From positions 1,550,001-1,614,000 of the forward strand of contig NZ_CP016094.1 in NCBI RefSeq assembly GCF_001746835.1: a stretch of DNA of 64,000 bases. Direction: 5' to 3'. Positions 4,155 to 28,400 of the stretch are shown piece by piece. Numbering within the stretch: position 1 is the stretch's first letter; every line of letters starts with the position of its first letter. The notes beneath the pieces were generated by a model. It searched no databases, had not been told where the DNA came from, and worked only from the letters and a program-made list of their open reading frames with translations. This stretch comes from Lacunisphaera limnophila. Lineage in GTDB: Bacteria > Verrucomicrobiota > Verrucomicrobiia > Opitutales > Opitutaceae. The position numbers were made by a program, and so were the translations under genes.

Positions 4155-5192
4155 TCAGCGTGGCGGGAGCGCGATGGGCGTGGGGGCGTTGCGGTCGGCG
4201 GTGAGGACGCCGTCCTGCTCCATTAGCTCCACGACCTGGATCGAGCTGCGGCGGAGTTCGAGGTTGTCCTGGTCGTCGGGGCTGATCGTGCCGGACCGAC
4301 CGGGGTGCGTGAAATAAAAGAGGTAGGCGCGATCACCGGCGACCACGACGCCCGGGTGGCCGCCGTTCACGCCGTCGTCGGCGCCCGTGCCGGGCACGCC
4401 GAGGAGGTCGCCGGTCTGCGCGGTCCAGGCGGTCAGGTCGTCGGAGCGGTAGACGCCAAGGCCCTTCCAGAGATCGACGAGCATCCAGTAGGAGTTCTTC
4501 CAGCGGAAGACATACGGACCCTCGCCGGGGCGCTCGCCGACGCCGGCGGCCTTACCGCGGTTGGTCCAGGTGGAGAGATCGGGGCTGTCGGCGTAGTAGA
4601 TGGATTTGCGGTCGCGTTCGTTGTTGTACCACATCCGCCAGCCGCCGCCGGGTAGGGCGTGCACGCCGGCGTCGATCACGCGGTCGGAGGCGAGGGTCAA
4701 CGCGGAGACGTAGGTCCATTTCCGCAGGTCGGCGCTCGTGAGGTGGACGATGCGCCGCGGGTGTTGCCAGGTTTCGAAGATCCCGGGCACGACCGTGAGA
4801 TACATGTGGTGTACGCCGTCGGGGCCAGTGATGACGTCGGGTGCCCAGTGGGTGGGCTCCGTGCCGCCGATCTCCGGCGGGAGTTCGATATCGGCCGTGC
4901 CGAGGTAGGACCACGCGGCGCCGTCGACCGACTCGGCGATACCGATGTGGCAGCCGTGGACCCAGGCGACGCCGGACAGGCCGGCGACGTTGGCGCGGCG
5001 GTTGGTGTAGAACATCCACCAGCGTTGGGCGGTGGGATTCCAGACGATGACGGGGTCGGCCGCGCCGTCGTGAACCGGGTCGCGGTAGAGGGGTTTTGGC
5101 GCGATGGGGTCGGTGGATGCGGCGGCGAAGGCCGGGGACAAGCCCGGGGCGGCAAGCAACGCGAGCAGGACGGGGAGGAGAAGCGATTTCAT
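4155..5192 (-). CDS. Exported beta-propeller glycosidase, GH43/GH117-like (clan GH-F type)
   Basis: A 345-residue secreted protein whose start at 5192 gives a good signal peptide (MKSLLLPVLLALLAAPGLSPAFA) in a CCCCATG context. The repeated five-bladed propeller pattern is visible: AADPVIVWNPTAQRWWMFYTN near 44-64, THWAPDVI near 115, and IDAGVHALPGGGWRMWYNN. The DPV motif with Asp46 matches the general-base blade of GH43-clan enzymes. The last blade is less canonical, and the acid Glu cannot be assigned with confidence (GERPGEGPYVF is the candidate). GH43 and GH117 are both possible. It is the upstream partner of the fucosidase in the minus-strand operon. Confidence 0.72.
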   Translation of the reverse strand: MKSLLLPVLLALLAAPGLSPAFAAASTDPIAPKPLYRDPVHDGAADPVIVWNPTAQRWWMFYTNRRANVAGLSGVAWVHGCHIGIAESVDGAAWSYLGTADIELPPEIGGTEPTHWAPDVITGPDGVHHMYLTVVPGIFETWQHPRRIVHLTSADLRKWTYVSALTLASDRVIDAGVHALPGGGWRMWYNNERDRKSIYYADSPDLSTWTNRGKAAGVGERPGEGPYVFRWKNSYWMLVDLWKGLGVYRSDDLTAWTAQTGDLLGVPGTGADDGVNGGHPGVVVAGDRAYLFYFTHPGRSGTISPDDQDNLELRRSSIQVVELMEQDGVLTADRNAPTPIALPPR

Positions 5193-5245
5193 GGGGGGTA
5201 ATTCCGTCATCCTGAGCATCGCGAAGCATGACGGTTGCGGTGCGT

Positions 5246-5367
5246 TGTAGGGCGGGGTCACCGAACCCCGCCTGGTCGGATGGAGGGCCCAGCTCCCGCT
5301 GGGCCACGGCACATCAGGTGATGCGCCCTCCGCAAATTCAGGCGGGGTTCGGCGACCCCGCCCTACA
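5246..5367. repeat. Composite inverted repeat, two facing GC-rich palindromes
   Basis: Left unit 5246-5272 (TGTAG then GGCGGGGT-N6-ACCCCGCC-like) and right unit 5341-5367 (the reverse complement, ending CCCTACA) face each other. Between them is a second dyad, CCCAGCTCCCGCTGGG, flanked by GGAGGG and CCCTCC. The same architecture occurs at 9146-9251. It lies between the ends of two minus-strand genes. It could form a long hairpin in RNA, but it is also part of a multi-copy family in this window. Confidence 0.85.
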
Positions 5368-17068: not shown

Positions 17069-17348
17069 GGCGGTTTCACGCATCCCGTTGTTTGCCGCTG
17101 CAAACCCGGGACCAGTCGCCCAGCCTGCGCTGTGGCTGGAAGGCGCAGTGACGCCAAGGTGGAACCCGGCCTCTGGACGGGTTGGTTTTGAAAAGACGGT
17201 TTAACCACGAAGGCACGAAGGACACGAAGGTTAGATTCCCCTGGAGGGCCCTGCTCCCGCTGGGCCGGGCTGTAGGGCGGGATCGCCGAATCCCGACTGC
17301 TTGGCCGCAATAAACGCAGAAGACGCAAAAGAGTCAGTGCGGTGGCTC
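17069..17348. repeat. Spacer with CACGAAGG array and one GC-rich palindrome
   Basis: There is no gene in this 280-bp stretch. It holds a TTTAACCACGAAGGCACGAAGGACACGAAGG array (17202-17231), then a degenerate CCCTGCTCCCGCTGGGCC dyad, and a TGTAG-GGCGGGAT-N6-ATCCCGAC unit at 17271-17297. At about 17308-17337 it ends with degenerate CGCAGAAGACGCAAAAG words. Confidence 0.75.
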
Positions 17349-17948
17349 CTACACGCCCCGGCTCAGTGGAACTTCTCCCCGCGTTTCATCATGCCGAGGA
17401 TCAGTTCGAGGCGGCGGGCGCGGGTCTCGGGTTTCTTGGCGGTAGTAGATGGCGTAGCGGTTGGCGGCGTTGAGGGATTCGAAGAAGGCCTTGGCCCGGG
17501 CGTGGGGGGCGAGTTGGGCGAGGAAGTCCGCCGGCATCTCGGCGGCGCGGGAGGACGCGTAGGCCTGCGTCCATCGTCCGTCGGCCTGGGCCGCGTCGAC
17601 CATGGCCTGGCCGGCCGGCTGCATGCGGCCCGCCTGGGTCAGGCGGGCCACGTGGCCGACGTTGATCTTGGACCAGGTGCTGCGCGGCCCGCGCCGGGTG
17701 AATTTCTGGAGGAAGGTCTGCTGGTCGTGGCTTTGCTTCTGGCCGTCGATCCAGCCGTAGCAGAGCGCCTCGTCGAGGGCCTCGGCGTAGGTGACGCTGG
17801 CGATCCCGCTGTCCTTCTTGGCGATTTGGAGCCAGATCCCCGGGTGGGTGCCGTGGTTGGCCTTGAGCCAGCGCCGGAAGGCCGCCGGCGAGGCAAAGGC
17901 GAGGATCGGCAGCTCGGGCTTGGTAGTCTTGGGGGACGGTTTGCTCAT
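17349..17948 (-). CDS. YdeI/OmpD-associated family protein with C-terminal frameshift
   Basis: The first ~170 residues form a recognisable YdeI/OmpD-associated domain: AFASPAAFRRWLKANHGTHPGIWLQIAKK, LDEALCYGWIDGQ and INVGHVARLTQAGRMQPAG. After NRYAIYYR the open frame runs into unrelated sequence and stops at 17349. The expected family tail (AKKPETRARRLELILGMMKRGEKFH then TGA at 17365-17363) is readable in another minus-strand frame from 17440. A small deletion near 17441 has therefore shifted the frame and lost about two or three residues. Either the gene is decaying or the base call is wrong. The function of the family is poorly defined. Confidence 0.75.
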   Translation of the reverse strand: MSKPSPKTTKPELPILAFASPAAFRRWLKANHGTHPGIWLQIAKKDSGIASVTYAEALDEALCYGWIDGQKQSHDQQTFLQKFTRRGPRSTWSKINVGHVARLTQAGRMQPAGQAMVDAAQADGRWTQAYASSRAAEMPADFLAQLAPHARAKAFFESLNAANRYAIYYRQETRDPRPPPRTDPRHDETRGEVPLSRGV

Positions 17949-18263
17949 GGGTGGGTGGGGGAGGGCGGCGGTTGGGGAGAGTCCGCCCGGATTTCCGACG
18001 ACCTCAAGACCCAAGCCCGGACCGGTTTTAGGGCGGGATCGCCGAATCCCGGCTGATTGGCCGCCAAAAACGCAAAAGGCGCAAAAGGATCCAGACGGTT
18101 TAACCACGAAGGACGCGAAGGGGCACGAAGGGAAATTCCCTTGGAGGGCCCGCGTCCCTGCGGGCCAGAGGCCTGGCGACGGCTGGTCCCGGCGGGCCGG
18201 GCCTTGGTCTGCCGGATCCAACCCGGGCCTTGCCACGACCCAGGAGCTGGCTAGCCTTCCCCC
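17949..18263. repeat. Spacer with mixed repeat elements
   Basis: This 315-bp gap contains a GGCGGGAT-N6-ATCCCGGC palindrome at about 18027-18053, GGCCGCCAAAAACGCAAAAGGCGCAAAAGG at 18059-18088, a TTTAACCACGAAGGACGCGAAGG array at 18098-18140, and a GGAGGGCCCGCGTCCCTGCGGGCC dyad near 18143-18166. The order resembles that of 17200-17300 and 18750-18860. No gene is visible. Confidence 0.7.
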
Positions 18264-18449
18264 ATGAGCAGCAAGGAACTCGTGATTGATCTTGTCCGCC
18301 GGTTACCGGACGAGGTTTCGCTCCGGGACATTGTCCGGGAGATCGAGTTTGTGGCCGGCGTGCGGGAGGGATTGGACTCCTTCGACAAGGAAGGTGGGTT
18401 CACGGTGGAAGAAGCCAGGGCCAAACTCGATGAATGGACCGCAAAGTAG
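18264..18449 (+). CDS. Small antitoxin-like protein of a type II toxin-antitoxin pair
   Basis: A 61-residue acidic, helical protein starting MSSKELVIDLVRRLPDEVSLRDIV and ending FTVEEARAKLDEWTAK. Such short proteins with a 'VEEAR..L..W' tail commonly precede ParE/RelE toxins and bind them through the C-terminus. It overlaps the downstream toxin gene by 16 bp, the usual coupling for such pairs. No DNA-binding domain can be named with certainty. Its identification rests mainly on context. Confidence 0.65.
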   Translation: MSSKELVIDLVRRLPDEVSLRDIVREIEFVAGVREGLDSFDKEGGFTVEEARAKLDEWTAK

Positions 18450-18739
18450 TCATCTCGGCGCGCGCGCTGCGTGACCTGGAAGAGATCGTCCGTTACATCG
18501 CGACCGACAATCCTCCGGCGGCCGCCCGGTTTGGCGCTTTGCTCCTGACGGAGGCCGAAGCCATCGGTCTGAAGCCGGAGACCGGACGCATGGTGCCCGA
18601 GTTCAAGGTCCCTGAAATCCGGGAACGGATAGTCCGCTCCATCCGGATCGTGTATCGGGTGGACGCCGCGCAGCACCGGGTGGTGATCGCCCGGTTCTGG
18701 CATGGCGCGCGAGGAAAGCCGGAGATCGGGCCGGCCTGA
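18434..18739 (+). CDS. ParE/RelE-superfamily toxin
   Basis: A 101-residue protein with the compact ParE/RelE fold pattern: VVISARALRDLEEIVRYIATDNPPAAARF (two N-terminal helices after a strand), then GRMVPEFKVPEIRERIVRSIRIVYRVD and VVIARFWHGAR in the C-terminal strands. These match the plasmid-stabilisation ParE type, which usually poisons DNA gyrase, whereas RelE cuts mRNA; the sequence does not settle which applies. The gene overlaps the antitoxin-like gene. Repeat arrays lie on both sides, and the pair is near the defence-like island that starts about 1 kb downstream. Confidence 0.78.
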   Translation: MDRKVVISARALRDLEEIVRYIATDNPPAAARFGALLLTEAEAIGLKPETGRMVPEFKVPEIRERIVRSIRIVYRVDAAQHRVVIARFWHGARGKPEIGPA

Positions 18740-19036
18740 GTCCGGATTGTTTAACCACGAAGGACACGAATAGACACGAAGGGCGGATTCCCCCTGCGGG
18801 CCGGATCTCGATCACCGGAGGTTGGCCGCCAAGAACGCAAAAGGCGCAAAAGGGGACGCTTTGCAGTCCCGGTGTGCCTTGTCCTCTGCTCGCTACCCGC
18901 TACCCACTACCCGCTACTTTCCTTACCCCCGTTTGACCTCTGCGCCCTTCGCGCCAACCTCCTGCTCCGACCTCCTTGGTCTGCTCTTCCCCTACTCACT
19001 ACCCGCTACCCGCTCCTCGCTACTCCTCCCATTCCC
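18740..19036. repeat. Spacer with CACGAAGG and (GCTACCC)n heptamer arrays
   Basis: A gene-free stretch of 297 bp. It contains TTTAACCACGAAGGACACGAATAGACACGAAGGG (18749-18782), GGCCGCCAAGAACGCAAAAGGCGCAAAAGG (18825-18854), and two runs of heptamers of the form GCTACCC/ACTACCC at about 18891-18920 and 18995-19024. The inverse of the heptamer run, GGGTAGCGGGTAGTGAG, occurs at 29421-29441. Confidence 0.7.
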
Positions 19037-19582
19037 ATGCCCCTCCTAACGATCGTTCCCCCGATGGCGGGCGCTGAGCGCCGGTTCCAGCCCTTCGTGG
19101 ATTTCGTGCAGAAATCCTGCGGGTGGGAGACGGAGTTCGTGCGGCTGAACCTGCCCGGGCATCGTCCGCCCTTTGGCTCGACGGAGATCTTCCCCGGGGT
19201 TGACGCCCAGACGGTGGGCAAGGTCGTGTTCGGCTTCTCCCTCGGCGCCCTCTACGCCCACCTGGGGGCGTTGCGGGCCCGGCACCTGATCCTCGGCTCG
19301 ATCTCGCCCTTCTTCCTAGAGGACGACGACGAACCCGAGCGCTGGATGATCTCCTACAAAGCCGGCAACCCCGCCACCCCTGCCGACATCCTGGTCGGCG
19401 CCCTCGAAGACGCCCAAATGCACCGCCGCGCCACCGCCATCCGCGACTTCTACCGCCAGCACACCTACACCGACGTCGCCAGCGCCGAACACGAGCTGTG
19501 GCATCCGAACTACCTCAAGGAGATCAAGGCCGCCCTCGATCGGCTTCAAACCCAGCCAGACCAGTCAAGAGTCAAGAACTGA
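19037..19582 (+). CDS. Small alpha/beta-hydrolase-like protein
   Basis: A 181-residue protein with no signal peptide. The FGFSLGALYAHLGALRARHLILGSISPFF stretch near residues 64-92 looks like the nucleophile elbow of an alpha/beta hydrolase (GFSLGA, Ser at the centre), and the segment RLNLPGHRPPFG fits an early loop. It is short for the fold. A late HELWHPNYLKEIKAAL segment may supply the catalytic His. The substrate cannot be inferred. The ATG follows a pyrimidine-rich run. The upstream sequence is heptamer repeat, and the AT-richer island begins just downstream. Confidence 0.5.
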   Translation: MPLLTIVPPMAGAERRFQPFVDFVQKSCGWETEFVRLNLPGHRPPFGSTEIFPGVDAQTVGKVVFGFSLGALYAHLGALRARHLILGSISPFFLEDDDEPERWMISYKAGNPATPADILVGALEDAQMHRRATAIRDFYRQHTYTDVASAEHELWHPNYLKEIKAALDRLQTQPDQSRVKN

Positions 19583-19795: not shown

Positions 19796-21571
19796 ATGAG
19801 AATCGAAAAGCTAGAGATTGAAAATTTCCGACGAATTGAAAAGGCCGTGATTCATTTGAATCCGGCTACGTTTGTTATAGGCCCCAATAACTGCGCGAAA
19901 AGCACTGTGATCGCTGCGCTCGAGGCTTTACTGTCCCTCGAACGCGACAAACTCACGCAGGCGGATATCCGCGAAAAATCCGATGGCACACGCGCGCCGG
20001 AAACCGTGATCACCGGCTATTTTGGACCAATCACCGCGGAAGTTGCAGCCGCCCGCGGATTCCGCGGACGGGTGATTAACAATCAATTTGTTTACCGTAA
20101 AAAGCTTACCATCGAATCGGGCAAGGCGCAGATCCAATGCCGTGAGCAACCGTCGAGCCTGAAGCCTGAATTCAAGGTAAAGACCGTGGGTGAACTCATT
20201 GCCGCCGGTATCACCGCCGAAGTGATCAAGGAAGTCCTCGATCTGGAGGTGCCCGCTGATAAGCTCGGTAAGGATTGGTTCAAGTCACTGCCTGAAGTGA
20301 TGACTTTCGATACGGCGGCGGAACCTGTCTGGGTCGAAAATCCAGGTGGTATCGCGCAGAATGTTATTTCTCGCCTCCCGCGATTGATCCACATCCCGGC
20401 CTTAACCGACTCTAAGGAAATCGAGTCCGGTGAGAAACAATATGTGCTGGGTGAGTGCCTTAGTCTGCTCTTCGAGGATTTGCTGACGGGCAATGCAACG
20501 ACCCATGAAATCCAGGAGAAGCTGACATTACTTCAGGGACAAATGGATCCAGGGGCGGAGCATTCGCTACTCGGAGGTTTGGTTAAGGCGGTGAACAAAA
20601 TTATCGAGGACGTTTTTCCGAAATGTGGCATCGCTATCACGCCATCACTCCAAGGCGTGCTGGAGATCCTCAAGCCCAAGTATGACGTCAAGGTTTTCTC
20701 CAATATCCGGACGCCCGTCTCGCGCCAAGGCACGGGCTTGGTGCGCACCTGCGCGTTTGCCATGCTCCGGCACCACGCTGCCCTAAAGTTACAAAAGGAA
20801 ATTCAAACTCGGCCGGTGGTTGTCGCATTCGAGGAGCCCGAACTTTTTCTCCATCCCTCGGCGGCCAATATGTTGCGCGACACCATCTATGCATTGGGAC
20901 GTTCGGATCAAATCGTCTGCACAACGCATTCCCCATGGATGATCGATCTGAGGCAGGACGCGCAGAGTATTACCCGCATGAGTATCGGCGAAAATGATCG
21001 AGCGGAGGCATGGAACTATGGCGTCTCTTCGGAATTGGGTAAGCTGCAGCCCGAAGACAAGGTCCGCGTTAAACTCATTCAGACTTTCGATGATGAGCTG
21101 GCCCGCGTTTTCTTTGCCGAGAGGGTGTTGGTGGTGGAGGGCGATTCGGAGGTGGCTGCCATCCGACAAACGCTCCGCTTGCTTCCCGAAGGCCAGCGGA
21201 AAATCATCCAGTCGCGTTTCCAGATCGTGAAGGCACGCGGCAAGGCTTCGATTATCTCTCTAGTGAAATATCTCCACGCTTTGAACCTAGACGTATCTGT
21301 TATGCATGACGGGGACCAGGGCACACCCGGGGCGGAAGTATTTAACGCACCCATCGCCGCTGCGTTGAACAAGCCAAGTCGCTTGTTCGTCCTAACCCCA
21401 AATCTTGAAAATACACTGGGTTACACGCCGCCTTCCGCGGACAAGCCTTACCATGCATTCATGAAGACGAGCGCATGGAACCAAGTGAGCGATATCCCTG
21501 TAGCTTGGCGGACCACCCTGGCGGGGATTTTCGAAATTACCTGGCCGGCGGATACACCACCCGCCGCGTGA
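19796..21571 (+). CDS. OLD-family ATPase with C-terminal TOPRIM nuclease domain
   Basis: A 591-residue protein. The N-terminus (MRIEKLEIENFRRIEKAVIHL) and the P-loop GPNNCAKST at 29-37 begin an SMC/RecF-like ABC ATPase. The second P-loop glycine is Ala34. Walker B with a catalytic Glu is VVVAFEEPELFLHPS at 341-355, followed by the H-loop TTHSPWMID. A TOPRIM domain follows: VLVVEGDSE at 444-452 and MHDGDQG at 503-509, giving the Glu and DxD metal ligands. This is the architecture of Overcoming-Lysogeny-Defect nucleases and of Gabija GajA. It is the first of three same-strand genes in an AT-richer block, so an anti-phage role is inferred. It lacks a helicase partner of the GajB type. Confidence 0.85.
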   Translation: MRIEKLEIENFRRIEKAVIHLNPATFVIGPNNCAKSTVIAALEALLSLERDKLTQADIREKSDGTRAPETVITGYFGPITAEVAAARGFRGRVINNQFVYRKKLTIESGKAQIQCREQPSSLKPEFKVKTVGELIAAGITAEVIKEVLDLEVPADKLGKDWFKSLPEVMTFDTAAEPVWVENPGGIAQNVISRLPRLIHIPALTDSKEIESGEKQYVLGECLSLLFEDLLTGNATTHEIQEKLTLLQGQMDPGAEHSLLGGLVKAVNKIIEDVFPKCGIAITPSLQGVLEILKPKYDVKVFSNIRTPVSRQGTGLVRTCAFAMLRHHAALKLQKEIQTRPVVVAFEEPELFLHPSAANMLRDTIYALGRSDQIVCTTHSPWMIDLRQDAQSITRMSIGENDRAEAWNYGVSSELGKLQPEDKVRVKLIQTFDDELARVFFAERVLVVEGDSEVAAIRQTLRLLPEGQRKIIQSRFQIVKARGKASIISLVKYLHALNLDVSVMHDGDQGTPGAEVFNAPIAAALNKPSRLFVLTPNLENTLGYTPPSADKPYHAFMKTSAWNQVSDIPVAWRTTLAGIFEITWPADTPPAA

Positions 21572-21699
21572 CCGTGCATTCTTCAGCCGCTTCGGAGGCG
21601 CCGGAAAACTTAGGGGTGAGTAGACTGCCTTGTTCACGGCTCGCAAATTGCCTAAAATCGGGGCAAAAAAGTAGCCAGACTATATAACTCTCTTCATCC
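21572..21699. other. Spacer inside the three-gene island
   Basis: 128 bp between the ATPase gene and the 189-residue gene. AT-rich words (AAAAAAGTAGCCAGACTATATAACTC near 21663-21688) sit just upstream of the next start and look like a promoter, which would allow separate expression of the second and third genes. No repeat-family member is present. Confidence 0.35.
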
Positions 21700-22269
21700 A
21701 TGCTCCCCGAATTTCCCAGGGCAAAAAAGCGCGCCGACGAACTTTGGATGGCAGCCATGATGGCAGGAATGCGCAGTGATCCTTTCTTGGCGGGAATCGC
21801 CATCCGGGTTCAGAAGGAGGGACGCCGCGCCTACGTTGATGGCTCTGAAATGAACTATGTTCCCGCGTCCGTAGCGACCACCCTCAAAGCAAATGTTGGA
21901 CGTGGAGAGACCGTCGAAGAGTTCTATAATTCGGCTGAGGCGCTCGGTAAAAAAATGGGTGATGAGCAGGCGAAATACCTTTTTAAGGTGATGGAGCAGC
22001 CAAGCACGACCTTCCAGCCATTCAACTTCGGTCCGGACGTGACAATTGACGACATCCTCGGTGTCTGGGACAAAATGTTCGTCCGCTTTAAGGAAGGCCG
22101 GCCGCAGTGGCCGCAAATCACCAGTAGCGCTGAAGTGCTTGGACGTCTGCGAGAAATAATGGAGCAGTCGCTACAGGATCCTGTGTCCCGCGCCAAATGG
22201 CAGGCGCTTATAGACAAGAAACGCAAAGAATACGATGAGAGAGAGGCTCGTAGAAGACTGGTTGATTAG
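21700..22269 (+). CDS. Unknown 189-residue protein in the defence-like island
   Basis: Not recognised. It is a soluble, charged, mostly helical protein: RAKKRADELWMAAMMAGMRSDPF at the N-terminus, a middle GSEMNYVPASVATTLKANVGRGETVEEFYNSAEALGKKMGDEQAKYLFKVME, and a very basic C-terminal helix (DKKRKEYDEREARRRLVD). There is no signal peptide, membrane segment or cysteine cluster. The last 35 bp overlap the start of the next gene, so the two products are probably made together and may form a complex (inference). Base composition is like its two neighbours. Confidence 0.7.
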   Translation: MLPEFPRAKKRADELWMAAMMAGMRSDPFLAGIAIRVQKEGRRAYVDGSEMNYVPASVATTLKANVGRGETVEEFYNSAEALGKKMGDEQAKYLFKVMEQPSTTFQPFNFGPDVTIDDILGVWDKMFVRFKEGRPQWPQITSSAEVLGRLREIMEQSLQDPVSRAKWQALIDKKRKEYDEREARRRLVD

Positions 22270-23812
22270 AATTCACGAACGCGGTTACGACGTCGCGTTC
22301 TGTCAGGTCTTGCTCTCGCAGGGCCTGCACGTCCTACGCGCTGGGCACAGCCCCACTGAGCACGGAAAGGATGTGATCGCCAGCACGCCCGACCGCTCAA
22401 AGCTTTGGGGTTACCAACTCAAAAGCGGCAATTTTTCCCAGGCCGATGTCACCAAGCACCGCGAGCAGCTAAACATGCTCGTCGAAACCCGCCCAATCTT
22501 TCCAGGCCTGCCCCGCGACTTCGAATACCAGCCTGTTTTGGTTACCACTGGAGAATTTAAAGAACCTGCTGTCTCGCTTATCAAGGAGCTCAACGAAAGC
22601 TGGCGCGTCCGCAACCTTCCGGCACTTGAACTCATCAACGGTCGTGCCCTGCTTGCCGATCTCCTTAAACTCTCGGCCGACTTCTGGCCCGTTGCGCTGC
22701 CTGCCGCCCGCACTCTCCGTTCGCTTTACCTAGTGGAAGGGAAAGGTGATTTCGACCCTGACGCATTCTCGGACCTCCTAATGCGCCTCTTCGCGGAGAA
22801 GACTGGCAGAAACCTGGGGCGCCAAGCCGCCGCCGCCAATCTCTTCACAAGCTACCTCCTTGGTCCATTCCAAGAGAACATGGATCACTGGAGCGTCTTT
22901 CGGGGTTGGACGCTCACCGCCGCTTCAATCGCCTGGGCCGGCGCCAAGTCCAATACTTCAGAAGGAACCTGGCATGAGCCTTACAGGCTCGCTCGAGATG
23001 CCGCCAAGGCGGCCCTCGTCGCCCTCCACAATGAAGCGAAGAACGAAAACAAATTTCGGTCTCACGGCATGGAATTCGACGACTACACCCGCGTTCGCAA
23101 CGTCACAGCCATGGCAGCTGCCGTCTGTGTTGAACTGATGTCGCAATCAACCGAAACTCGAGCACCAGATATCTACCTAGCACGTCTTACGCAGTTTATT
23201 GCTGAAGATCGCCTGCTCTTTTGGGGCGAAGGTGCGCTTTCACAGCACCTGATGCTGATTTGGTTTCTCGAAAAGCACGGTGCACACGACATTGCCAAAG
23301 TGCTCTTGTTGCGAATCATCACGCTTGTCGCCAGGAAAAATCAAGAGGGCAGCCCAGATCCGTTGCCGGATGGCTATACTTCACCCGATGACTGCCTCAC
23401 GGAGTTGCTTTCAGAGACCTCGGACAGCGAGGTAAAAAAAGCCGTCGAGTCCCATAGCTTGCTAGCGCTCATCATTCTCTGCGCCCGCCGACAGATGCGT
23501 GCGGAGCTCAATGCAATATGGGTGGACATCACACACGTGCGGATGTCCATACTTCGCACAGAGGATCCACTCGACGTTCTCCAATGGTCTGCCGATAACG
23601 CCACCGAGCATTCCCAGCAGTTCAATGAACACAGCTGGCGCGAACTCGCAGAATTTGCGTTTCTCCAAGACGTCGACCGACTCCTCCCAATCTTTCAAAA
23701 AGACCCAGATTTTGCGCTCATGTATCTGCTCACCTTTCAGCATCGCATGATGGGGAGTTTGCTCAAGCATCTCGATGAGCACTTCGCTCGAGTTGAAGGT
23801 GCTTCCAAGTAG
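22235..23812 (+). CDS. Large protein with PD-(D/E)xK-like nuclease N-terminus and helical C-terminus
   Basis: A 525-residue protein of unknown family. The N-terminal ~150 residues read as a restriction-endonuclease-like fold: VLLSQGLHVLRAGHSPTEHGKDVIAS (31-50) followed by WGYQLKSGN (58-66). This corresponds to Asp46 and the Gln61-x-Lys63 motif, with Glu42 as a further candidate ligand, as in Mrr/DUF4365-like nucleases. The remaining ~370 residues are alpha-helical (repeated LL.A, WREL, AEFAFL patterns) without a named domain. The start codon at 22235 lies within the preceding gene. With the OLD/TOPRIM gene upstream, a two-nuclease defence module is suspected. Confidence 0.7.
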   Translation: MRERLVEDWLIRIHERGYDVAFCQVLLSQGLHVLRAGHSPTEHGKDVIASTPDRSKLWGYQLKSGNFSQADVTKHREQLNMLVETRPIFPGLPRDFEYQPVLVTTGEFKEPAVSLIKELNESWRVRNLPALELINGRALLADLLKLSADFWPVALPAARTLRSLYLVEGKGDFDPDAFSDLLMRLFAEKTGRNLGRQAAAANLFTSYLLGPFQENMDHWSVFRGWTLTAASIAWAGAKSNTSEGTWHEPYRLARDAAKAALVALHNEAKNENKFRSHGMEFDDYTRVRNVTAMAAAVCVELMSQSTETRAPDIYLARLTQFIAEDRLLFWGEGALSQHLMLIWFLEKHGAHDIAKVLLLRIITLVARKNQEGSPDPLPDGYTSPDDCLTELLSETSDSEVKKAVESHSLLALIILCARRQMRAELNAIWVDITHVRMSILRTEDPLDVLQWSADNATEHSQQFNEHSWRELAEFAFLQDVDRLLPIFQKDPDFALMYLLTFQHRMMGSLLKHLDEHFARVEGASK

Positions 23813-24041: not shown

Positions 24042-25085
24042 TCAGGTCTCCGCGTCGCGGCCGAGGATGCCGCGGCGCATGAGGCGGCTGGTTTTTTCGG
24101 ACGGGGCCCAGACCAGTAGGACGGCCATGATGCCGTAGATCGGCAGGTGGCCGACGAGCTCCACCCAGCTGAAGAGCGTGAGCGTCAGGTTGATGATGCC
24201 CCAGGCCGCGATGATGATCACGCGCGGGAAGATGCCGAAGGCCAGGAACAGGCCGATGAGCAGCTCGGTGGTCCCGGCAAACCAGATGAAGGCCGCGTTG
24301 GACAGGGGGAAGCCGACGGCCCCGGTGAAGTTCAGCGGGAATTGCTCCAGGAAGGTGAGCGCCAGCGCGGGGTTGGCCAGTTTCTCGGTGAATGCGACGA
24401 AGACAAAGCCCACCCCCATGGAAATGCGCAGCAACTTCAGCCCGTGCTTCGCCAGCGCGGGTGACGGGGCCAGCCGGGGGAACAACAGCTGGTCGATCGA
24501 GTGCGGTCCGCGACCCTTGCAGAAAAAGAAGACCGCGGCGCCGAGGTAATGGAGATTCTCGAAGGTGGTTTCCCAGCCCACGACAAAGCCGGCGACGACC
24601 CACAACACCGCCAGCGAGGCCGCGAAGACCCGCGTCATGCCGCCGTAGAGGAAGCTCAGCGCGATGGCGATCTGCCAGGTCCCCAGGAGGTAGTTCCAGG
24701 GTGCGGCGGGCACATTGTTCGGCGAGAACAGCCGGCCCTGCACGCCGAGCACGAGGAGCGGCACCGCGAAATGGATGCCAATCACCACGGGCACCCATCC
24801 GTAGAACCGGGCCATCCCCTCATCCGTGGCCCCCAGGCGCTCGGGTCCGGGGATCAGGTCGCGCTCCCCGCGCCGCCGCCAGAAAAACTCGGCGACGGCC
24901 GTGAGGGCGAGGGCCGCGGCGACGGCCGTCAGGCAGAAGGTCGAGAAAAAGCCACCGGCGGCCAGCGCGGGGACCTCGCCCGACACAAACCACTTCTCGT
25001 GGGCCTGCGCGGCCGTCGGGCCCGCGAAGCAGGCCAGCAAAAGGACAAGGGGCGTGAAAATCCTGCCAGAGCGTGGAATACTCAT
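24042..25085 (-). CDS. DoxX-like multi-pass membrane protein
   Basis: A 347-residue integral membrane protein. The start at 25085 (CCCCCATG) gives a signal-like N-terminus (IFTPLVLLLACFAGPTAAQA) followed by HEKWFVSGEVP. About eight hydrophobic segments follow, including LLGTWQIAIALSFLYGG, AASLAVLWVVAGFVVG, and the C-terminal FAGTTELLIGLFLAFGIFPRVIIIAAW. The last three helices resemble the DoxX/SURF4 family (terminal oxidase or thiosulfate:quinone subunit-like, often of unknown role). No catalytic residues are assigned. It is convergent with the island genes and stands alone on the minus strand. Confidence 0.7.
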   Translation of the reverse strand: MSIPRSGRIFTPLVLLLACFAGPTAAQAHEKWFVSGEVPALAAGGFFSTFCLTAVAAALALTAVAEFFWRRRGERDLIPGPERLGATDEGMARFYGWVPVVIGIHFAVPLLVLGVQGRLFSPNNVPAAPWNYLLGTWQIAIALSFLYGGMTRVFAASLAVLWVVAGFVVGWETTFENLHYLGAAVFFFCKGRGPHSIDQLLFPRLAPSPALAKHGLKLLRISMGVGFVFVAFTEKLANPALALTFLEQFPLNFTGAVGFPLSNAAFIWFAGTTELLIGLFLAFGIFPRVIIIAAWGIINLTLTLFSWVELVGHLPIYGIMAVLLVWAPSEKTSRLMRRGILGRDAET

Positions 25086-25164
25086 GGGGGCATGGTGACA
25101 GGTGGAAGAGAAAGCAGAAGGCTGAAACAGGAAGGAAGCCCTGATGGGGTCTGGATCAGACCAA

Positions 25165-25310
25165 GGCAATTTTGGCCACGGATAACACCGATGGCCACGG
25201 ATCAATGCCCGGGGCCGGCCTTGGGCCGCATCCGTGTTCATCCGTGCCATCGGTGGCTAAATCCTCCGGGTTTTTTGCTCTGTGCCTTCGTGTCTTCGTG
25301 GTTAATCCTT
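25165..25310. repeat. Inverted repeat of CACGGAT words plus CTTCGTG array
   Basis: Left arm TTTTGGCCACGGATAACACCGATGGCCACGGAT (about 25170-25202) and right arm CATCCGTGTTCATCCGTGCCATCGGTGGC (25229-25257) are inverted copies. A separate CTCTGTGCCTTCGTGTCTTCGTGGTTAATCC run (25279-25309) is the inverse of the TTAACCACGAAGG arrays elsewhere. The last part ends 7 bp before the DUF2200 start codon. Confidence 0.75.
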
Positions 25311-25315
25311 CGGCC

Positions 25316-25863: not shown

Positions 25864-28083
25864 TCACTCCGGGGACTTCAGGTGTTGGTTGAAGAAATTG
25901 ATGACGAGGAGTTCTTCGCGGTAGCTGATCAGCGGGTTCTCGGCGCCGGCCATGTGGGTTCCTGTCATGGGGAGAATCTCAAAGGGCTTGCCGGCCATGA
26001 ACAGGGCGTCGGCCAGCTGCAGGGTGTGCTGGAAGTACACGTTGTCGTCGGTCAGGCCGTGGACGAGCAGGAGCGGGCGCTCGAGCTGGTCCACATAGGT
26101 CAGGGCGCTGCTCACCTGATAGGCGCCGGGGTTCTCCTGAGGCAGGCCGAGGTAGCGTTCGGTGTAGTGGGTGTCGTAGTTCTCCCACGTGATGACCGGC
26201 GCGCCGGCGACGCCGGCCTTGAAGATATCGGGGCGGCGGAGGGTGGCCATCGCGCTGAAGTAACCGCCGAAGGACCAGCCGGTGACGCCGACGCGCTGCA
26301 GATCCAGCTCGGGATACTGGGCCCCGAGCGCGAGGAGGCCCTCGATCTGGTCGTTGAGTGCGATGTCGATCAGGTTACCCCGCACGGCCCGCTCCCAGTC
26401 GCGTCCGCGCCGCGGGGTGCCGCGACCGTCGAGCTTCACGACGATGTAGCCCTGGTCGGCCATCCACTGGTCCTTCAGGTAGGAGCGCAGGCTGGACGAC
26501 ACCACCGTGGTCGTCGGGCCCGCGTAGACGGACAGGAGGACCGGGTACTTCCGGCCCGGCTGGAAATTGCGGGGACGGACGAGCGCGGCGTAATAGGAAC
26601 GGGGGCCGCCGACTGTCTGGGTGAGCTCGACCTGAGGCCAGACCGGGGGATCCTCGGCGACGGATTTGAGTTCGCCCAGTTTCCGGCCGTCGGCTGCCAG
26701 CACCGCGGTGCCGGAACTGCCGTCGAGCAGGTTGAAGAAATGCAGCAAGACGCGGTTGTTCTCGGAGAGTTGCAGGCTGTGGTTGCCGCGGGCCGGTGTC
26801 AGGTCGGTGCCCGGACCGCCGGCGAGGGGGATTTTCCAGACATGCGTCTCGCGCGGGTCGGCGCTGCCCTTCACGTAGAGCTCGCCGGTTTCCTCGACGA
26901 CCTTCACGACGCCGCGGTAGCCAAAGCCAAGCGGCGTCAACTCGCGGACCAGGCGGCCGTCGGCGTCGCGCAACTCGACCTGCCAGTCGCCGCGGGACTC
27001 CGTGGTCCAGAGGAACTGCCGGCCGCCCTCCAGCCAGAGGGGCATCAGGGCGGTGTCGTCGAGGTTGAGCCAGGCGGGATCGGATTCCTGGAGGAGTTCG
27101 CGGGTCTGCCCGGTGGCCGGATCGACGGCGAGGAGCACCTGGTGTTGCTGGGCGCGATCCTGCACCAAGATGGTCAGCGGGGCGCCCGCCTCCTTCCAGA
27201 CGATGCGGGTGAGGTACGGGTACTTCGCCGCGTCCCACTGGACCCAGCGGGTTTCGCCGCCGGCGCGGGCGATGACGCCCAGGCGGACGACGGCATTCGG
27301 GGAGCCGGCCTTGGGGTAGGCGAATTTCGTGGGGGCGACCTCCGGGCGGAGCGGGTCGGCGATGTAGCGCGTCTCGACGCCGGACTCGTCGGTCTGCTGA
27401 TAGGCCAGCCACTGGGAATCGGGCGACCACCAGTAGCCCTCGCGGCGGTCCATTTCCTCCTGGGCCACGAATTCGGCGGTGGCGTGGGTGAGGGTCTCGG
27501 TGGCGCCGGAGGTCAGGGCGCGCTCCGTCAGGCCGGCCAGGTCGATCACGTGCAGCTCGCCGTCCTGAACGGCGGCCACGGCGGTGCCGTCGGGCGAGAA
27601 GCGCGGGTCGATCCAGTTTTTGCCCGGCAGTTCGGTGACGCGCAGGTCGGCGCGGTTCACGAGGTAGAGTTTGCCGGACAGGGTCACGAGTAGGCGGCTG
27701 CCGTCCTTGGTCAGGTCGAAGCGGGTGAAGCCGCGGGCGGTGACGCGCGCGCGTTCGCGCCGGGCCTTCTCCTCCGCGCTCAGCGTTTCCTCGGCGGAAC
27801 CCAGGATCTGCGCCGGGGTGATGAGCTCGCGCTCCTGGCCCGTGGCGAGGTCCAGCTCGTAGAGGTGGAGCACGCGGTCGCGCGCGCCGCTGCGCAGGAA
27901 GAGCACGGCGCTGCCGTCGGGGGTGAGGCGGGACGACACCGGGCGGCCCAGCGTGTAGCTGCGCGTTTCGGCGAGGTTGCGGAAGAAGGCGAGGTTGGCG
28001 TCCTCCGCCGCGGGCAGGCGGCTGGCGGCGAACAGGCTGGAGAGACAAAGGCCAAGGCGAACGAGCCGGTGGTTGATCAGCAT
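25864..28083 (-). CDS. S9 family prolyl oligopeptidase / dipeptidyl peptidase IV-like, exported
   Basis: A 739-residue serine peptidase. The start at 28083 gives a signal peptide (LGLCLSSLFAASRLPAA). Residues about 60-470 form the DPP IV beta-propeller (EEMDRREGYWWSPDSQWLAYQQTDESGVETRYI is the region carrying the amino-terminus-binding double Glu). The C-terminal alpha/beta hydrolase contains the nucleophile in VTGWSFGGYFSAMATLRRPD, the Asp in HGLTDDNVYFQH and the His in MTGTHMAG. It probably removes N-terminal dipeptides in the periplasm. It stands alone on the minus strand between repeat-rich spacers. Confidence 0.9.
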   Translation of the reverse strand: MLINHRLVRLGLCLSSLFAASRLPAAEDANLAFFRNLAETRSYTLGRPVSSRLTPDGSAVLFLRSGARDRVLHLYELDLATGQERELITPAQILGSAEETLSAEEKARRERARVTARGFTRFDLTKDGSRLLVTLSGKLYLVNRADLRVTELPGKNWIDPRFSPDGTAVAAVQDGELHVIDLAGLTERALTSGATETLTHATAEFVAQEEMDRREGYWWSPDSQWLAYQQTDESGVETRYIADPLRPEVAPTKFAYPKAGSPNAVVRLGVIARAGGETRWVQWDAAKYPYLTRIVWKEAGAPLTILVQDRAQQHQVLLAVDPATGQTRELLQESDPAWLNLDDTALMPLWLEGGRQFLWTTESRGDWQVELRDADGRLVRELTPLGFGYRGVVKVVEETGELYVKGSADPRETHVWKIPLAGGPGTDLTPARGNHSLQLSENNRVLLHFFNLLDGSSGTAVLAADGRKLGELKSVAEDPPVWPQVELTQTVGGPRSYYAALVRPRNFQPGRKYPVLLSVYAGPTTTVVSSSLRSYLKDQWMADQGYIVVKLDGRGTPRRGRDWERAVRGNLIDIALNDQIEGLLALGAQYPELDLQRVGVTGWSFGGYFSAMATLRRPDIFKAGVAGAPVITWENYDTHYTERYLGLPQENPGAYQVSSALTYVDQLERPLLLVHGLTDDNVYFQHTLQLADALFMAGKPFEILPMTGTHMAGAENPLISYREELLVINFFNQHLKSPE

Positions 28084-28400
28084 CCCGTGATTGAATACGA
28101 CCGGCCCGGTGAGTCCATGCGGAAGGGAGGGGGGCGGGGAAGGAAGAAGGAAGAAGGAAGAAGGATGAAGTAAGATGTAAGAAGGAGTGGGGAGCGGACG
28201 GCGGATGACGGAGGGCGGAGGGCTGCGACCGGCTTTTGCGCTTTTTGCGTTTTTGGCGGCTAAGGTTCGGGGGATGGGAGCCAACGCGTCCGGAGGCCGG
28301 GCTCGGCAAACGGGCGTCGACAAGCAACGCCCCTACAGGGATCCGGCGGGGTTCGGCCCGTTCGACTTGACTCAGGGCAGGCGACCCCGCCCTACAAGCT
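28084..28400. repeat. Spacer with (AAGAAGG)n run and an interrupted palindrome
   Basis: This 317-bp spacer holds an AAGAAGG heptamer run at about 28139-28166 and a TTTTTGCGTTTTTGGCGGC word near 28243-28261. At 28345-28396 a GC-rich palindrome unit is split: GGCGGGGTTCGG, then about 24 extra bases (CCCGTTCGACTTGACTCAGG and a few more), then GCGACCCCGCCCTACA. No gene is seen. Confidence 0.7.

Follow-up and report, generated by a model that had tools for sequence, protein, structure and literature searches.

A Low-GC Tract of Lacunisphaera limnophila Carries an Overlapping Gene Pair

The genome of Lacunisphaera limnophila (assembly GCF_001746835.1) harbors three consecutive genes, orf1, orf2, and orf3, within the 64,000-nucleotide stretch analyzed here (the window; positions 1,550,001 to 1,614,000 of contig NZ_CP016094.1). 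A preliminary description made from the sequence had put the trio forward as a three-gene candidate defense system. Comparison with related loci suggests that orf2 and orf3 form a two-gene nuclease module whose second product belongs to a family homologous to OloB of the Olokun system, and that orf1, encoding an OLD-family protein, is probably a separate gene. The three open reading frames (ORFs), their coordinates, their + strand location, and the 35-nt overlap between the last two were borne out. The features of the locus, in window positions, are as follows.

18264-18739, + strand: ParE/RelE-type toxin–antitoxin pair (antitoxin-like 18264-18449, toxin 18434-18739), outside the orf2/orf3 pair
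19796-21571, + strand: orf1, OLD-family ATPase-TOPRIM nuclease, Class 1-like, 591 aa; a neighbor, probably outside the pair
21700-22269, + strand: orf2, partner protein of a family without a known domain, 189 aa, with a basic C-terminal helix
22235-23812, + strand: orf3, OloB-like family protein with a predicted Mrr/FokI-fold nuclease and a mostly helical region, 525 aa
22235-22269, + strand: 35 nt shared out of frame by the end of orf2 and the beginning of orf3

The guanine-plus-cytosine (GC) content is 0.539 in orf1, 0.535 in orf2, and 0.553 in orf3, as against 0.654-0.682 in four flanking genes (mqo, 19037-19582, 24042-25250, and 25864-28323), in agreement with the earlier remark that the trio is AT-richer than its neighbors. 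Over the rest of the window the lowest 1-kb GC is 0.616, and the sole low-GC neighbor is a 61-aa antitoxin-like ORF (0.575). A gap of 128 nt separates orf1 from orf2. The toxin–antitoxin pair had also been recognized correctly; it lies ∼1 kb upstream of orf1, and its toxin matches ParE_toxin of Pfam at 2.4e-16. A scan for promoters and terminators gave no excess over shuffled sequences. The search for the flank protein in nine relatives at 1e-100, made for an empty-site analysis, returned no match, an empty result that is uninformative.

orf2 and orf3 Occur Together in All Loci Identified

Searching plasmids by tblastn with ORF3 as the query retrieved one record, a Rhodococcus qingshengii plasmid (locus L003), in which a 195-aa gene is paired with that of a 511-aa Mrr_cat protein, the overlap being also 35 nt. 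A two-row profile then yielded 20 further loci among one-per-species genomes, and profile searches of further genomes added two (L045 and L047), giving, with the window, a total of 24. Second copies of counted loci (L026, L027, L037, L041, L042, L044, L046, and L050) were not counted again. Owing to frameshifts in the records, L014 (broken orf3) was left out of the orf3 alignment and L019 (orf2 in two frames) out of the orf2 alignment; the Rhodococcus proteins are in neither. By record title, the loci outside the window belong to seven phyla, namely, Pseudomonadota, Bacteroidota, Chloroflexota, Actinomycetota, Acidobacteriota, Ignavibacteriota, and Bacillota.

All loci of the orf3 family (24/24) have a relative of orf2 upstream of orf3 and overlapping it, and the flanks differ. 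Single-sequence orf2 matches are weak in places (0.005 for L012 and L018). When each of the 20 aligned orf2 members was left out in turn, a profile built from the remaining 19 recovered it at E ≤ 1e-18, the E values being for 10,000 sequences and the underlying alignment having included the left-out member. The orf2 relatives outside the profile (L003, L019, L045, and L047) match it too. Hence, of the separate occurrence of homologues, which had been named in advance as the finding that would speak against a joint system, no case was seen between the second and third genes; it was seen between the first gene and these two. By sequence comparison, orf2 and orf3 are probably a self-contained two-gene unit.

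The pair is rare and very patchy. In the phylum sample of the window host it was found, with a single protein query, only in the window genome (1/288), and among 273 genomes of the order of the host, one further genome showed only a partial match to the nuclease domain. New pairs beyond the seed genomes numbered 1/398 in the phylum of L010, 1/326 in that of L013, and 0/301 in that of L011; two more matches from the scan of the phylum of L010 were Olokun loci. No relatives of orf3 or orf2 were detected in viral contigs, nor of orf3 in phages. Among plasmids, window orf2 had no match, and Rhodococcus orf2 and orf3 matched only their own record. A protein of 782 aa from the same order as the host (L051, 6861-9209) matches the orf3 nuclease domain weakly (0.00093) and has a different, larger architecture.

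The Coding Overlap Is Conserved in Length and Frame

The start of orf3 lies in the region coding for the C-terminal helix of ORF2. The overlap measures 32 nt in 11 loci, 35 in eight, 44 in three, 38 in one, and 41 in one, and is always out of frame and 2 mod 3. As 24/24 loci keep 32-44 nt in the same frame relation, the overlap is beyond chance. The orf3 starts (ATG, GTG, or TTG) were picked by N-terminal homology, and other starts are possible in some of the ORFs; in the window an alternative TTG start would leave an overlap of 8 nt. A Shine-Dalgarno match of at least 4 nt precedes orf3 in 17/24 loci, compared with 1682/8880 background positions inside orf2; for L045 this count used a wrong start, and its overlap length has been corrected.

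ORF3 Combines a Predicted Nuclease Domain with a Helical Region

ORF3 consists of a nuclease domain (residues 1-150) followed by a mostly helical part (about 155-525). The former carries the catalytic motif E15, E42-x-G-K-D46, and Q61-x-K63, with E15, GKD, and QxK present in 20/20 aligned members. The combination of E, GKD, and QxK is a signature of Mrr-type PD-(D/E)xK nucleases, and the likeness to Mrr-type restriction endonucleases lies in this core with its D and QxK. Window ORF3 itself matched no family (PADLOC at E ≤ 1, Pfam, NCBIfam). Mrr_cat of Pfam was matched by 7/20 alignment members, and therefore the earlier guess of a nuclease was right, as was the description of the third gene as a restriction-endonuclease-like N-terminus joined to a long helical region. 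The fold comparison is in agreement with it: in a structural model of ORF3 (mean predicted local distance difference test score 78), the nuclease domain resembled the FokI cleavage domain (Z 11.1, root-mean-square deviation (rmsd) 3.5, 137 aligned) and, tied with it, AF1548 (Z 10.7, rmsd 2.6, 112 aligned), followed by MspJI (Z 9.0, rmsd 3.9, 136 aligned), with AspBHI also among the near folds. Fold matches of the helical part (designed repeats, Munc13) have no meaning for function. A Foldseek search of whole ORF3 against the PDB returned nothing at E ≤ 0.001, and the orf3 profile found nothing significant there (0.98). The N-terminus of ORF3 is hence predicted from the model to be an Mrr/FokI-fold PD-(D/E)xK nuclease.

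Homology Between the ORF3 Family and Olokun OloB

Olokun, an anti-phage system for which Millman et al. 2022 is said to be the source, consists of OloA and OloB. The PADLOC model of OloB (PDLC03926) was matched by 11/20 ORF3 members at E ≤ 0.01 (best 9.4e-12), and in L023 the match spans residues 8-439 of the protein and 7-456 of the 556 positions of the model. For profile comparison, the five loci of the OloB set came from genomes in the same phyla as L007 and L010; of seven OloB matches in all, two partial ones (G681 and G575) were left out. Alignment of the ORF3 and OloB profiles with hhalign gave E = 1.2e-19 over 442 columns. When the proteins were split, the nuclease halves matched at 9.8e-15 and the helical halves at 2.2e-8 over 195 columns, while two comparisons of helical halves with OloA gave 0.16 and 0.39. 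The ORF3 family falls into subgroup A (the window and L006-L010) and subgroup B (the other 14 of the alignment). They are one family, as they match each other at 1e-31 over 460 columns and by their helical halves at 3.4e-6; subgroup B matches OloB at 7.5e-20, and its helical half at 1.8e-8. By these profile comparisons the ORF3 family is homologous to OloB, a distant kinship that was absent from the preliminary description.

The organization is also alike, in that both systems have two genes, of which the second encodes the nuclease and overlaps the first. They differ in the first gene. OloA (PDLC03925; 300-690 aa) adjoins OloB in 5/5 Olokun comparison loci, whereas an OloA profile (E ≤ 0.1) found no ORF in the 24 pair loci, of which L021 and L047 cover <1 kb upstream; in its place stands the unrelated ∼190-200-aa ORF2. 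The overlaps differ as well: 32-44 nt (2 mod 3) in the pair loci, as opposed to 4 nt in 4/5 Olokun loci and, as called, 22 nt in L048 (1 mod 3). The pair was consequently not assigned to Olokun proper, OloA not having been found. The Olokun locus L048 (6231-8806) has a short OloA of 300 aa, with the best match to profile positions 415-586 of 596, and a umuC-like gene ∼2 kb away.

ORF2 Is a Small Protein Without a Recognized Domain

ORF2 members are ∼190-200 residues long, some being called longer, and the basic C-terminal helix is conserved. Neither Pfam nor NCBIfam placed window ORF2 in a family above cut-off, and it matched no PADLOC model at E ≤ 1, as had been anticipated for a protein without a recognizable domain. 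Across the family, PADLOC gave two weak single-member matches, to Cas8f and CARF (0.007 and 0.023), and these were taken as chance, as were matches to GerD and a segregation protein and single-member PHROG matches, including one to a head protein (0.0029). The structural model of ORF2 had no clear fold match (best Z 3.2) and found nothing at E ≤ 0.001 in a viral structure library; the orf2 profile found nothing significant in the PDB (best 0.018). The possibility that ORF2 is a piece of OloA was rejected, because no member of the family matched the PADLOC OloA model and the hhalign comparison was not significant (probability 0.8%).

The OLD-Family Gene Is Probably a Separate Neighbor

The assignment of the first gene as an ATPase with a TOPRIM domain was confirmed: ORF1 matches Pfam AAA_15 at 4.7e-36 and OLD-like_TOPRIM at 4.5e-12. 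Among the best 25 of 112 PADLOC families, Old was the best match (1.1e-63), and GajA models were matched more weakly (3.7e-26). ORF1 also matched the OLD-family endonuclease 6p74 at 3.4e-18, which is the OLD protein of T. scotoductus according to the passage on it in PMC10568477, and, in a tblastn search, the old gene of phage P2 at 1e-20.

Within the available flanks, 22/24 pair loci showed no ORF resembling the window OLD (E ≤ 0.01); the flanks reach 5-7 kb upstream, <1 kb in L021 and L047, and L006 ends with orf3. An OLD gene stands next to the pair in 2/24 loci, intact only in the window and as a remnant on the Rhodococcus plasmid. Conversely, OLD relatives occur without the pair. Plasmids yielded 89 records with an OLD match, of which 62 aligned to at least 80% of the query; only 1/89 also has an orf3 match, its OLD being a distant one. 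Three OLD contexts inspected contained no orf2 or orf3, and no conserved partner was evident in them. One OLD relative lies beside a nucleotidyltransferase/ThiF/Mov34/SAVED operon, which we take to be CBASS-like (cyclic oligonucleotide-based antiphage signaling system). Another, on a Vibrio plasmid, is part of an array of small genes resembling cassettes, and the third lies in a filamentous Vibrio phage, where the next gene on the same strand is annotated as a DNA repair protein. In the order of the window host, OLD relatives at 1e-40 were found in the window genome only, of 79. On the Rhodococcus plasmid, a further OLD-type gene is located ∼3.5 kb from the remnant on the opposite strand.

Since an OLD gene adjoins the pair in 2/24 loci only, one of them a remnant, a three-gene OLD system is disfavored, and the proposal that the three genes act as one unit was not supported. 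Class 1 OLD proteins are encoded by single genes, as stated in the part of PMC10568477 that deals with them. ORF1 resembles them (P2 Old, T. scotoductus OLD) in having an ABC (ATP-binding cassette) ATPase and an OLD TOPRIM domain in one protein; the window OLD differs in being followed, after 128 nt, by a further pair of low-GC genes. The gene orf1 is probably a separate Class 1-like OLD gene in a common low-GC tract. A probably false three-gene type is in this way kept out of defense catalogues.

Three other known systems, Menshen, Gabija, and PARIS, were considered and rejected, as neither orf2 nor orf3 matched the expected partner gene. Menshen combines an OLD-type component with a DUF262 protein, according to the relevant passage of PMC10952713; neither orf2 nor orf3 matches DUF262/GmrSD_N, so the suggestion to look toward Menshen led to no assignment. 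ORF1 is like Gabija in matching GajA, but no UvrD-like helicase match was found in orf2 or orf3, and PARIS differs in that PADLOC AriB is matched by neither. The statement that GajB, HNH, and PARIS partners are missing was upheld, the two proteins matching no GajB, HNH protein, or AriB. Of the earlier proposal, a candidate defense nuclease module outside Gabija, PARIS, and Menshen stands, and the three-gene unit is not supported.

orf2 and orf3 as a Candidate Sister Form of Olokun

On the basis of these comparisons we favor, at somewhat better than even odds, the explanation that orf2 and orf3 constitute a two-gene nuclease module, a sister form of Olokun, in which ORF2 takes the place of OloA as a regulatory or sensing subunit. 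The effector would be ORF3, in which a DNase domain of the Mrr/FokI type is joined to the largely helical part, with ORF2 as the small subunit controlling it. The orf3 start lying inside the last orf2 codons, the two proteins would be made by coupled, near-equimolar synthesis; ORF3 would thus be born beside ORF2 and kept in complex with it. On sensing a signal from an incoming phage or plasmid, ORF2 or the whole complex would set the nuclease free or guide it to cut DNA. Olokun has been grouped under nuclease activity in the passage of PMC10855318 concerning it and is described as not thoroughly characterized in that of PMC12592470; other passages name or count the system. In the passages of the phage literature on Olokun, a scope that does not extend to Millman et al. 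2022, an OloB-like protein with an ORF2-type partner is not described. A second, smaller partner for the OloB-like effector family would give a system that is easier to purify and analyze, and a comparison of ORF2 with OloA would reveal the activation needs of OloB-like nucleases.

Several points weigh against this explanation. Its support comes from sequence comparison and predicted structure, and nothing in ORF2 itself points to sensing or regulation. The link of window ORF3 to OloB is weaker than that of the family: subgroup A matches OloB at 8.6e-8 over 417 columns (nuclease half 3.2e-7), and its helical half at 0.021, which is not significant; therefore, the helical link of window ORF3 to OloB is indirect, via subgroup B. 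The window, L006, L007, L045, and L047 have no direct match to the PADLOC OloB model. As regards orf1, the codon-usage distance of OLD to the pair is 1.16, compared with 1.72 and 1.51 to host genes, and the common low GC and similar codon usage look as if OLD and the pair had been acquired together. In L003, a truncated OLD-like gene (4858-5322; approximately the first 46 residues alignable) lies directly upstream of orf2, the same position as in the window, and could point to an ancestral three-gene form. Many loci, moreover, have ordinary chromosomal neighbors, and the 110 neighbor proteins of 23 loci that were scanned, picked by hand and mostly out of a list of 160, had no control set.

The main rival is an arrangement of the toxin–antitoxin kind, in which ORF2 is a labile antitoxin of the ORF3 nuclease, phage-induced shut-off frees the nuclease, and the cell dies. 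It overlaps with the sister form of Olokun in everything save the role of ORF2. In its favor are the close coupling of a small leading gene to a larger one for a nuclease, the basic C-terminal helix of ORF2, and an overlap that could fix the ratio of the two products. However, window ORF2 matches no antitoxin family in Pfam or NCBIfam, overlapping operons are often not of this kind, and the homology to OloB favors an Olokun-like complex over a classic toxin–antitoxin pair; we regard it as unlikely.

Within the favored explanation, a sister form of Olokun, a more specific idea is rather doubtful at present. The pair may represent a partner-swapped branch of the Olokun kind, in which the same DNase effector family works under either OloA or an unrelated ∼195-residue protein. 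With the latter, the out-of-frame overlap would itself be part of the control, locking synthesis of the effector to full translation of its keeper; a phage that disturbs translation would unbalance the two proteins and so set the nuclease loose, which is speculation to the same degree. The conserved dual-coding overlap is in any event a testable case of enforced effector–partner coupling.

A genuine three-gene system, in which ORF2 and ORF3 cooperate with an OLD ATPase-nuclease that senses or processes the ends of phage DNA, OLD having been lost in other lineages, is improbable. The same strand, the 128-nt gap, the low GC in common, the similar codon usage, and the remnant of an OLD-like N-terminus upstream of orf2 on the Rhodococcus plasmid speak for it, but the failure to find such an OLD in the available flanks of 22/24 loci, the single orf3 match among 89 OLD-matching plasmid records, and the three OLD contexts lacking the pair argue otherwise. 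We judge it similarly improbable that the module is a Type IV-like modification-dependent restriction system, in which ORF3 would cut modified DNA with ORF2 as specificity subunit, a reading that again overlaps with the sister form of Olokun. The nuclease fold near FokI, AF1548, MspJI, and AspBHI and the Mrr_cat matches in 7/20 members accord with it; yet the fold match is limited to the cutting domain, and Pfam recognized no modified-base reader domain in the ORF2 or ORF3 family. That the genes are a housekeeping pair for DNA repair or processing, as the ordinary chromosomal neighbors of several loci might suggest, is very unlikely given the patchy spread (1/398, 1/326, and 0/301 new pairs; 1/288 in the phylum sample of the window), the presence of the pair on a plasmid, and the relation to OloB.

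Neighbors of the Pair Loci and Repeats in the Window

Among the best 25 of 155 PADLOC families, the neighbors of the pair loci matched models of Drt3a/Drt3b, PD-T7-1, PDC-S02, AbiEii, and HamB. Pfam identified a reverse transcriptase by L023, GmrSD_N by L020, AbiEii ∼6.7 kb from the L045 pair, and, next to the pair in L003, a DEAD helicase that is HamB-like. Because of the missing control set, defense genes near some pairs are no more than supportive of a role in defense. In L011 and L020, both from Chloroflexota, relatives of the same two flanking genes are found, though on opposite sides of the pair, which may mark a site of repeated integration. Around the locus in the window, repeat mosaics of the AACGCAAAAGGCGCAAAAGG and TTTAACCACGAAGGACACGAA types were observed at 17194-18131, 18744-18853, 25285-25311, and 28232-28251, the expectation from shuffled sequence being zero.

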